A DNA stretch of 60,231 bases from Ignavibacteria bacterium RIFOXYB12_FULL_35_14. Lineage in GTDB: Bacteria > Bacteroidota > Ignavibacteria > Ignavibacteriales > Ignavibacteriaceae. Each line of letters starts with the position of its first letter. Positions within the stretch are counted from its first letter, which is position 1. Position numbers and translations under genes: made by a program. The notes under the pieces are model-generated. The model did no database searches. It was not told where the DNA came from and worked only from the letters and a program-made list of their open reading frames with translations. Shown here in pieces: positions 2,152-5,186 of this stretch. Location of the stretch: the NCBI GenBank assembly GCA_001803045.1, contig MHAR01000039.1, positions 33,001-93,231 on the forward strand. Reading direction: 5' to 3'.

Positions 2152-2544
2152 TCATCTTAGATTTTCATCTCCGAAAGCAAAAGGAAGAAGGTCGGATAAT
2201 TTTAGTACCTTAATTTCCTTTTTATGATTTACCATAATCACATCTATGTTGCCGCAAAGATCGCTTATTACCTGCCTGCATGCACCGCAAGGTGGACAAA
2301 AATCGGGTGCATCGCTCGCAATTGCCATAGCTTTGAACTTTCTTTCACCTTCTAAATATGCGTTAAAGACGGCTGTACGTTCGGCGCAAATTGTTAAGCT
2401 GTACGAGCTGTTTTCGATATTTGCTCCTAAATACAATTTGTTATTTTCAGTTAGAAGTGCAGCTCCAACATGAAAGTTTGAATAAGGAGGATGTGCTTTT
2501 AATTTTGCTTTTATTGCTTCTTCAGCGAGTTGGGTGTAAACCAT
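2152..2544 (-). CDS. cdd: Cytidine deaminase
   Basis: A 130-residue enzyme of the small homotetrameric class that converts (deoxy)cytidine to (deoxy)uridine. The HVGAALL motif is at about residues 25-31. The zinc ligands and catalytic glutamate are visible: C53-A-E55 in TICAERTAVF, and C86 and C89 in PPCGACRQV. It is the first gene of the minus-strand cluster cdd-tdk-nupC-punA, with the upstream 100 bp free of genes, so the promoter probably lies between 2545 and about 2650. The product uridine/deoxyuridine would feed Tdk and related salvage steps. Confidence 0.96.
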   Translation of the reverse strand: MVYTQLAEEAIKAKLKAHPPYSNFHVGAALLTENNKLYLGANIENSSYSLTICAERTAVFNAYLEGERKFKAMAIASDAPDFCPPCGACRQVISDLCGNIDVIMVNHKKEIKVLKLSDLLPFAFGDENLR

Positions 2545-2655: not shown

Positions 2656-3149
2656 TCCCCTCTTGAGAGGGGCGAAGGGTGTGTCATTTATTTGTTTTGC
2701 AACTAGCTTCATACTCATCAATCCATTTCTCAATTCTTTTTAACGTTCTGTCCAATTTATGAACAACTTCCAAGTCATCAAAGCGAAGAAATTGAACGCT
2801 AAGCTTTTCAATTTTCTTTTGCCGTCTCTCATCTTTCTTTTCGTTTCCGTAATGACTCTCGTCATCGATTTCTATAAAATGAGGTATAATTTGTTGCAGA
2901 AGAAATCTACTATGTAATTGTCAATTGGCTTTTGTCGATGGAAGTCGTAACCTTTCATTTGTTTACCTTTAAGATAATTCCATAATATTGTCTCTGTGAA
3001 GGTGCTGTTGTTACGCAGTTGCCTCGCTTTCTCCTTAGGCTCAGGATTGTACGGTATTAACTTTCTTTTCATTCTTTCGTTATCTGCAAAAGATTAGTGA
3101 TTCTTAAAATTACGAACACACCCCTTTCGTTCCCCTCTCAGAGAGGGGA
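2656..3149. mobile_element. Putative small mobile element: DUF559 gene bracketed by inverted palindromic repeats
   Basis: Two similar segments face each other. The left one (2656-2684) reads TCCCCTCTTGAGAGGGG then CGAAGGGTGTGT. The right one (3116-3149), read on the minus strand, gives TCCCCTCTCTGAGAGGGG, then AACGAAAGGGGTGTGT. Each has a self-complementary outer half and a GGGTGTGT inner half pointing at the gene. The stop codon of the enclosed DUF559 reading frame (2684-2686) touches the left repeat. The geometry is that of terminal inverted repeats around a one-gene cargo. No transposase is present, and no clear target-site duplication was found by eye. That this moves as a unit is inference; the inverted repeats themselves are seen directly. 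Confidence 0.55.
2684..3072 (-). pseudogene. DUF559 endonuclease-domain protein, frameshifted
   Basis: The first part (ATG at 3072) encodes a basic start and the DUF559 features KARQLRNNSTFTETILWNYL, then KGYDFHRQKPIDNYIVDFFC and NKLYLI, ending at a TAG near 2870. In the next frame the protein resumes with IEIDDESHYGNEKKDERR and runs to LKRIEKWIDEYEASCKTNK, ending at TGA 2684-2686. Joined, this gives about 128 residues, the usual size of DUF559 proteins, which resemble Vsr/restriction-type PD-(D/E)XK nucleases; the core acidic motif (VDFF..., EIDDESH) straddles the break. One extra or missing base in ATTTTATAGAAATC explains the shift, so the copy is probably inactive unless it is a sequencing error or programmed shift. 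It is bounded by inverted palindromic repeats. Confidence 0.8.
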
Positions 3150-3182: not shown

Positions 3183-5186
3183 CTAAAAATCCTCATCTAG
3201 CAGCCAGCCCTGTGCTAAATCTTTGTTCATCTCAGAAATAAATCGTGAGGGTTTAGAAAGAGTTGTTCCAGCTTCTCTGTCAAAAATGTTCATAGGATAA
3301 GTCACAAATAAATTTTGCTTTGCTCTTGTAGATGCAACATACATTAATCTTCTTTCCTCTTCTAAAGTATCCAAATTTTCTACCGATCGGCTTGATGGGA
3401 AAAATCCCTCAACGGCATGAATGATAAAAACCGAATGCCACTCCAAACCTTTTGCAGAATGAATTGTCGAAAGCGTAACATACTCTTCCTCTTTATCTGT
3501 AGCCTCAATATCTATTACAGAATCAATGATTGGTTCAATTGCCATGTCTGCGAGTAAGCTGTCAAGTGATTTATAATTCTCAGTGATGTTAAGGAAAATG
3601 TCCAAATCCTTTTTCCGTTTGTTAAAATCATCATATTTTTCATTGAAAATGGGGTAGTAATAATCAACAACCAACTGTGCTTTTTCCGATGGAAGCGCTT
3701 GCTTTGTGTGAAGCTGATACAAAAGCTGAAACAACTTCGCAATCGTATCGTTATATCTAAAAGATGTTTGAGAATCTGGATTTGCTTTGATGGTCAGTCG
3801 TGCAGTTGCAAGTTCATCTAAAATTTTTTGTGCGGTTTTGGGTCCTACTCCCTCAAGTAAGAGAAGCACTCTATACCAGCTAATAATATCTTTCGGGTTT
3901 GCAGCGATTCGTAAAAATGCCAAAACGTCTTTAATATGAGCAGTTTCTATAAACTTCATGCCGCCAAATTTTTGAAAAGGAATATTTGCTTTGTTAAGCT
4001 CAATCTCCAAATCAAAAGAAAAAAATGAAGAACGAAATAACACAGCTATATCTTTTAACGGAACTCCTTCTTCCCTCAGATCAAGAATTTTATCAACTAT
4101 AAATTTAGATTGAAGATTCTCAGTTGAAGCAGCAACAATGAAAGGTAAATCCCCGCCTGTTCTTCTTGTGTAAAGATGTTTCTCATACTTCTCAACCGCG
4201 CCTTCGATAATTTTATTTGTGAAATCAAGAACCGGCTGAACGCTTCGGTAATTCTCTTCGAGCTTAATAATTTTAGTATCAGGAAATAGAATTGGGAATT
4301 CGATGATATTCTTGAAATTGGCGCCGCGAAAGGAATAAATTGATTGAGAATCATCACCAACAACCATAATGTTTTTATTAAGCTGTGTAAGTCCCAATAC
4401 CACTTCTGCTTGAAGCTTGTTCGTATCCTGGTATTCATCAACCATTACAAATTTAATTGAAGAAAGGAGTGATTTAGCGGATGGACTCAAATCATGCAGA
4501 AAATTTTTTAGATAGACGAGAAGATCATCGTAATCCAGTAAATTATTTCTTCGTTTGTACTCAGAGTAGACTTTCCTAATGTCCATTATTTTATCTAGCT
4601 GATCGAGGAAGTGCGGATAGGATTCATCAATTATTTCTTCAACAGGTTTTCCTGTATTCACGCTTAAACTAAAAACTTTGTTAAGCGTCTGCTTATTTGG
4701 AAATCGTTTTTCCTTAGTTATAAATTCTACTTGTGATCGGATAAGATTAATAACATCCTCACTATCACCTTGATCTAAAATTGTGAATGAAGAATCAAGA
4801 TTTAGTGCTTTATAATATTTTCTTAGAGTAAGATTAGCAAAGGAATGAAATGTTCCTCCTAAAATTTTTGAGCATCGATTATCGAGCAAAACCGCTGCAC
4901 GATTCATCATCTCATTTGCAGCTTTTCGGGTAAAAGTTAAAAGTAAAATTGATTTTGGATCAAAGCCAAGTTCGACCAATCTTGCCACGCGATAAACTAG
5001 TGTTCTTGTTTTTCCGGTTCCTGCTCCGGCAATAATTAGGTAAGCCCCATCAACAGCAGATGCAGCTTCAAATTGTGCCGGGTTTAATGCATTCTGGTAG
5101 TTAATTGAAAATTTATTTTCATAAATTACTCTTTTCCCAACGATGTTATCATTAAGTCTTTTGAGAGTATATTTTTTTTGAATCAT
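3183..5186 (-). CDS. UvrD/Rep/PcrA-type ATP-dependent DNA helicase
   Basis: A 667-residue superfamily 1A 3'-5' helicase. Motifs occur in order: Q-motif-like LNPAQFEAA (34-42), Walker A GAGTGKTR (54-61), motif Ia LLLTFTRKAANEM, motif II VDEYQDTNKLQ (about 249), motif III VGDDSQSIYSFRGA, motif IV region LEENYRS, motif V TLSTIHSAKGLEW (about 566-578) and motif VI RRLMYVASTRAKQNL. The family unwinds DNA in repair and replication-fork processing. It is shorter than E. coli UvrD (about 720) and lacks an obvious C-terminal tudor extension, so I leave the symbol empty. It stands alone between the DUF559 remnant and the divergent clpC. Confidence 0.93.
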   Translation of the reverse strand: MIQKKYTLKRLNDNIVGKRVIYENKFSINYQNALNPAQFEAASAVDGAYLIIAGAGTGKTRTLVYRVARLVELGFDPKSILLLTFTRKAANEMMNRAAVLLDNRCSKILGGTFHSFANLTLRKYYKALNLDSSFTILDQGDSEDVINLIRSQVEFITKEKRFPNKQTLNKVFSLSVNTGKPVEEIIDESYPHFLDQLDKIMDIRKVYSEYKRRNNLLDYDDLLVYLKNFLHDLSPSAKSLLSSIKFVMVDEYQDTNKLQAEVVLGLTQLNKNIMVVGDDSQSIYSFRGANFKNIIEFPILFPDTKIIKLEENYRSVQPVLDFTNKIIEGAVEKYEKHLYTRRTGGDLPFIVAASTENLQSKFIVDKILDLREEGVPLKDIAVLFRSSFFSFDLEIELNKANIPFQKFGGMKFIETAHIKDVLAFLRIAANPKDIISWYRVLLLLEGVGPKTAQKILDELATARLTIKANPDSQTSFRYNDTIAKLFQLLYQLHTKQALPSEKAQLVVDYYYPIFNEKYDDFNKRKKDLDIFLNITENYKSLDSLLADMAIEPIIDSVIDIEATDKEEEYVTLSTIHSAKGLEWHSVFIIHAVEGFFPSSRSVENLDTLEEERRLMYVASTRAKQNLFVTYPMNIFDREAGTTLSKPSRFISEMNKDLAQGWLLDEDF

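Follow-up and report, generated by a model that had tools for sequence, protein, structure and literature searches.

A frameshifted DUF559 nuclease gene between palindromic repeats: a probable decayed copy of a one-gene, homing-like mobile element with REP-like ends

The closest described counterparts of the arrangement reported here are the REP and REPIN repeats with their RAYT enzymes (REPtrons, GTAG REPs), in which the gene of a DNA-cutting enzyme likewise stands between palindromic units, copies of which are scattered elsewhere as single units or inverted pairs. According to Di Nocera (2013; PMC3733652), REPs may lie inside genes, and some large families of short bacterial G/C palindromes have no known mover. 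A second point of comparison is offered by the EDxHD homing endonuclease genes (treated in PMC3943268), represented by I-Bth0305I. Their catalytic domain is related by sequence and fold to DUF559 and, like the in-frame DUF559 copies in LeuRS and MetH described below, they occupy a single site of a conserved gene in some relatives and not in others, a likeness drawn from those copies and not from the clade of the locus studied here. Inteins with a homing endonuclease also place a nuclease in frame in essential genes, and the Rickettsia palindromic elements and CGTC REPs are palindromes able to lie in frame in genes. YcjD has already been linked to Vsr by Feder and Bujnicki (PMC1189080), and PMC9403480, in its treatment of inteins, assigns a DUF559 gene to the EDxHD homing family. 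We found no description of a palindrome-bounded DUF559 arrangement in the open-access literature searched, and this kind of element is apparently undescribed so far.

The window, by which we mean the whole stretch of 60,231 nucleotides analysed from Ignavibacteria bacterium RIFOXYB12_FULL_35_14, carries a 0.5-kb element between a cdd-like and a UvrD-like gene (Table 1). As the preliminary description had it, a DUF559 gene is enclosed by two inverted hairpin repeats (2657-2684 on the plus strand and 3116-3148 on the minus strand), which are not identical. Both ends have one C arm and two G runs: the hairpin CCCCTC..GAGGGG is followed, after a spacer, by another G run with TGTGT. The two differ in this spacer, which is short in the unit 3′ of the gene and long in the one 5′ of it, and the right-hand hairpin has an 8-bp stem. 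As single-stranded DNA, both units fold better than shuffled sequences (z of -3.15 and -3.96). The stop codon, a TGA, does touch a repeat, sharing one base with the left unit. The frameshift given in that description was also confirmed: PF04480 matches its two halves in two different frames (E=1.2e-16 for the N-half), and the copy is therefore probably dead. Apart from DUF559, no ORF of at least 60 codons lies between the two units, and hence no transposase.

Table 1. Features of the DUF559 element and its neighbours (positions in the window)
Feature	Position	Strand	Details
Left terminal unit	2656..2684	+	T, hairpin CCCCTC-TTGA-GAGGGG (2657-2672), spacer CGA, tail AGGGTGTGT directed into gene
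DUF559 (PF04480) nuclease gene, frameshifted	2684..3072	-	N-half frame 2872-3072, C-half frame 2687-2920, stop 2684-2686
Right terminal unit	3116..3149	-	Tail GGGGTGTGT (ACACACCCC on +), long spacer, hairpin CCCCTCTCAGAGAGGGG, outer T on minus strand
Cytidine-deaminase-like (cdd-like) gene, neighbour outside element	2152..2544	-	PF00383 match
UvrD-like helicase gene, neighbour outside element	3183..5186	-	PF00580, PF13361 matches

Lacking a transposase between its units, the element differs from an insertion sequence or MITE of a DDE or HUH transposase. It differs from a REPtron in that the enzyme is a DUF559 nuclease related to I-Bth0305I rather than a Y1/HUH tyrosine transposase, in that the second G run forms the tail of the unit, and in that the outer side of the stem bears no GTAG tag; a T is constant there, directly preceding the hairpin in all 74 units that could be compared at the named loci considered below, where the outer bases -4 to -1 lean A-A-T-T (outer side tallied). 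Unlike the EDxHD homing genes, it has palindromic repeats at its ends, which also occur dispersed on their own, and it does not lie in an intron or intein. With the Rickettsia palindromic elements and CGTC REPs a nuclease gene is not reported; the stems of the DUF559 units start with CCCC and not with the A-T pairs of a CGTC REP, and the CGT before the left hairpin of the window is happenstance. A link between CGTC-type repeats and DUF559 was looked for and not found, the surroundings of DUF559 showing no enrichment of a CGTC-like motif (one of 80 loci as against one of 132 control windows).

The repeat pattern exceeds chance in the source genome, because CCCCTCN{3,8}GAGGGGN{2,14}GGTGTGT occurs nine times in its 4.1 Mb and never when read backwards. 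Judged by coordinates, seven of the nine matches adjoin four DUF559 genes and two are solo. PF04480 matches this genome ten times, the window gene accounting for two of these matches with its two halves, and three other DUF559 genes (L001, L004 and L005) have, by eye, variant repeats of a hairpin plus a G run on one or both sides. One solo unit (L014, contig C21) lies in frame within a gene bearing a type IX secretion sorting tail, the Pfam match of that tail being slightly below the gathering score (26.5 as against 27 bits).

Similar flanks accompany DUF559 genes in other phyla. We took the best 80 named loci of a longer list found with a small DUF559 alignment; from their record titles they belong to Bacteroidota, Ignavibacteria, Planctomycetota, Desulfobacterota, Nitrospirota, Neomarinimicrobiota, Paceibacterota and other groups. 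When the five with short flanks were left out, a unit with its tail facing the gene was present on both sides in 39 of 75 loci, on one side in 26 and on neither in 10, while the corresponding figures for 265 control windows from the same loci were 0, 4 and 261. The motif had been composed after inspection of the flanks, and we therefore repeated the test with a motif-free search for hairpins (G/C stem of at least 7; four of the 80 loci left out for short flanks), which gave hairpins on both sides in 42 of 76 loci and on at least one side in 70, versus 0 and 14 of 269 controls. The hairpin signal was weaker in 16 more DUF559 loci drawn from plasmid and phage collections, some of whose plasmid records are chromosome-sized, and which cover cyanobacteria, alpha-, beta- and gammaproteobacteria, Deinococcus and one phage: hairpins occur on at least one side in 12 of 16 loci versus 19 of 62 control windows, and an inverted-repeat score of at least 34 was reached by 7 of 16 versus 4 of 62. 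The DUF559 gene of Deinococcus psychrotolerans is located between paaD and paaZ, and a Sphingomonas gene between sufB and sufC. The tails point inward in free-standing loci of the Bacteroidota type and, by eye, outward in the LeuRS, MetH and Deinococcus copies. The window element is thus one copy of a large, widespread class, and DUF559 genes with such flanks, which the preliminary description had considered worth looking for, exist both in the source genome and beyond its phylum. In a plasmid of Synechocystis sp. B12 (L133), an annotated DUF559 gene without visible hairpins stands amid frames adjoining a BREX PglX gene.

Nuclease and repeat appear to belong together, the type of unit following the clade of the nuclease. 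Tail type was scored on 67 rows of a tree of 127 DUF559 domains, leaving out L095 (which has a stop codon) and the 12 of the 80 loci that lack a single tail type, and it required six changes, while 200 shuffles averaged 20.1 and never went below 16. Tails could be typed on both sides in 45 loci and were the same in 37, different in five and cut short in three. Both results speak against the view, which we consider rather unlikely, that another enzyme moves the palindromic units as REP-like elements in their own right, with DUF559 homing into them or hitch-hiking between them; so do the lack of any other ORF between the window units and the LeuRS copies described below, which bring their own ends to a site at which 15 of 18 parsed loci have no element. 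What favours such independence is partly the number of units, up to 74 in a single genome (G339), and partly a genome (G107) with a unit and no DUF559 match; in addition, the hairpins of the repeats at L003 (1360-1430) and in the flanks of L053 and L078 seem by eye to hold further inserted sequences.

The units are indeed widely dispersed. In 28 genomes selected because they carry DUF559 loci, 24 contained units, with 413 copies in all (summed rows) and none of the reversed pattern, and four were without the unit pattern. Some dispersed units form tail-out pairs like REPINs, as seen in seven examples hand-picked from the list of one genome. Across 198 genomes of the phylum the exact unit was found in 20, and 19 of these hold DUF559, as against 109 of the 198 overall (Fisher p=7e-5). 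Part of this co-occurrence signal is shared ancestry, since by genus the figures are only 10 of 11 versus 66 of 103, and seven of the 20 unit-bearing genomes come from one genus. Units fall within open frames in seven of 47 cases, five of the seven representing one orthologous site. A solo unit on contig C16 of G204 (L204) lies in frame in an N6-methylase (HsdM-like) gene, to which it adds the peptide KSPLERGFRGVL; its orthologous locus was not found in the seven other genomes of the genus. A separate palindrome family of the form CTCCGTCAGGGTTTTAAACCCTGACGGAGTT was observed at L203, L241 and L249, in the same intergenic region of several species.

Relatives without the element were found, as the preliminary description had anticipated for a mobile unit. 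In G001, the only other genome of the same genus in our draw, some 60 bp separate the cdd-like and uvrD-like matches, where the window has about 600, and the element is absent, the flanking genes matching the window neighbours at 81-83% identity; in-frame copies are likewise missing from most parsed relatives. The unoccupied sites derive from other species and not from strains, and the occupied and unoccupied sites compared are only ~65-83% identical, too diverged for a target duplication to be read. At the solo site L203, a unit is present in G204, altered in G092, decayed in G106 and absent in G147, in a stretch that is otherwise rearranged. Two Picosynechococcus plasmids differ, by eye, by an apparent extra pair of units beside the DUF559 gene, and in Azospirillum plasmids all seven records with long matches span the DUF559 gene, so that no empty site was seen there. 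The interval between sapF and fabI in E. coli was considered as a clean empty site and rejected, as both of the ycjD-less genomes compared have an RND efflux operon in place of the gene, an exchange also mentioned in PMC12817139. Of 5426 genomes, 5375 matched the ycjD region, 3333 of these with a query coverage of 80% or more, and a unit of a hairpin plus a G run lies 3′ of ycjD in E. coli (L127).

In other DUF559 genes the nuclease lies in frame inside a host gene. The phylum survey returned at least 150 DUF559 matches, and 24 of the 150 listed are contained in open frames of at least 600 codons. We examined 40 regions, a non-random sample chosen mostly for long open frames, and in 24 of them at least 100 codons flank DUF559 on both sides. 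In 13 fused proteins scanned for known families, DUF559 lay inside or between host domains in 11 and at the C-terminal end in two (PurQ and HutG). The 11 internal hosts are LeuRS (four proteins, two sites), MetH, RecG, HsdR, HsdM, a UvrD-like helicase, a type ISP enzyme and a PglX-like enzyme; in this last case the host match falls below the curated cut-off. The frame of these in-frame elements, many of which fall in one DUF559 clade, is open through both ends, and their end repeats are translated, for example as PLPPSPQKGE and ALPFGEGRGG in MetH. Ten in-frame proteins scanned against Pfam (E up to 1e-5 and 1e-4) gave no match to a Hint or intein splicing family. Unlike inteins, the in-frame copies apparently persist in essential genes as unspliced insertions, the host protein apparently keeping the insert; we infer the absence of splicing from the family scans.

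Most in-frame copies form a 34-row part of the DUF559 tree (support 99) apart from the free-standing genes. A 16-row group (support 97) unites the LeuRS, RecG, MetH, UvrD and PurQ insertions, and of the five DUF559 domains from LeuRS three cluster together with support, while two HsdR in-frame copies (L273 and L278) group with the free-standing side. The in-frame group and the free-standing group to which the window belongs are different parts of the tree. Among the LeuRS loci of one family, three of the 18 parsed are filled (two of the 20, L305 and L317, were not parsed by the script), and in another family, of 15 MetH loci, three are filled, 11 are plain and one keeps the repeats without the nuclease. 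This last, the MetH gene of G052 (L326), has repeat remnants at the insertion site and is perhaps the trace of a lost element.

On a host tree of 20 LeuRS rows the five filled genes are scattered and need five changes, no fewer than chance would give (mean of 4.6 after shuffling); two of the five pair with unfilled genes as well-supported sisters. Such occupancy would fit homing, or else an old insertion with many losses. We saw no sign of recent transfer of the LeuRS elements, whose divergence equals or exceeds that of the host genes, and recent homing in LeuRS is unsupported because the element divergence is not below the host divergence. This observation, together with the frameshift of the window copy and, it appears, of the copy at L006, favours the alternative in which the in-frame copies were inserted long ago, passed on vertically and lost on many occasions, the elements having ceased to move. 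We nevertheless regard that alternative as quite improbable, in view of the random-like scatter and the sister relationships of filled and unfilled LeuRS genes, of the solo site L203, which differs between sister species, and of the nuclease itself, in which pN was less than half of pS in 11 of 11 DUF559 pairs, with pS near saturation in most.

The residues D56, E67, D69, H73 and D80 (numbering of L003) are kept in all 127 DUF559 rows and, since pN is also below half of pS, the nuclease appears to be under selection. When the DUF559 profile was searched against the PDB (hmmsearch), it matched 3hrl, a Neisseria protein (1.8e-32), and I-Bth0305I, a homing endonuclease (1e-5), and the predicted DUF559 fold (pLDDT 90) also matches both, with a Foldseek E of 8.6e-4 for I-Bth0305I and a lower match to Vsr (E 0.14). 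DUF559 is thus predicted to have an EDxHD/Vsr-type fold related to that of I-Bth0305I. That it is a host or defence gene, a mismatch-repair or restriction helper with terminators or regulatory elements for flanks, agrees with the hairpins around it and with PMC12907096, in which the Caulobacter DUF559 protein VsrA is a predicted mismatch-repair endonuclease, but is highly improbable given units dispersed away from DUF559 and in open frames and DUF559 domains within LeuRS, MetH and RecG, where a terminator is senseless. Terminators were indeed rejected because some units occur in open frames and because the tail is a conserved G run and not a T run.

We therefore read the window, with a probability of roughly 70%, as holding a decayed copy of a one-gene, nuclease-driven, homing-like mobile element with REP-like palindromic ends. 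Such an element would encode a DUF559 nuclease of EDxHD/Vsr-type fold between two inverted G/C-rich palindromic units, each made of a hairpin, a second G run and a short tail. The nuclease would most likely recognise its own type of unit, or a similar target, and then cut or nick the DNA; host repair could then copy the element, or its ends alone, into the break. Solo units and tail-out pairs would remain as by-products, as REPs and REPINs do with RAYTs, but through an unrelated nuclease. The architecture, the association of gene and units, the match of unit type to nuclease clade, the dispersal, the occupied and unoccupied sites and the conserved residues are features of the sequences themselves, and we infer from them that the nuclease is the mover, driving its own movement by a cut-and-copy route. 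The preliminary description had proposed a non-autonomous or nuclease-driven mobile unit. Mobility is supported by the flanks and empty sites, while non-autonomous is a term better suited to the solo and paired units than to the gene-bearing copy.

Beyond the window, we lean slightly towards the view that DUF559 genes represent an undescribed, pan-bacterial kind of mobile element, which would combine a Vsr/EDxHD-type nuclease with palindromic REP-like ends, move through homing-like break repair, seed solo and paired palindromes and, in some lineages, enter essential genes in frame as an intein without splicing. If this is true, a large set of bacterial palindromic repeats that are now orphans would have their mover in the DUF559 element, and DUF559, present in more than half of the phylum genomes sampled, would shift from a domain of unknown function to a mobile element. 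As the nuclease clade predicts the type of the adjoining repeat, the question of what moves orphan palindromes becomes directly testable. The seeming persistence of a nuclease in LeuRS, MetH and RecG without a splicing domain also bears on how selfish genes survive and on how well proteins tolerate large inserts.

A last observation concerns the loop of the LeuRS editing domain (L306, L314, L318 and L322), which holds a DUF559 element in some Flavobacteriaceae-like genomes and other in-frame palindromes in relatives. Some of these palindromes resemble CGTC REPs (GTCATTCCGAGCGAAGCGAAGGAATC), and the loop looks like a tolerant hotspot.
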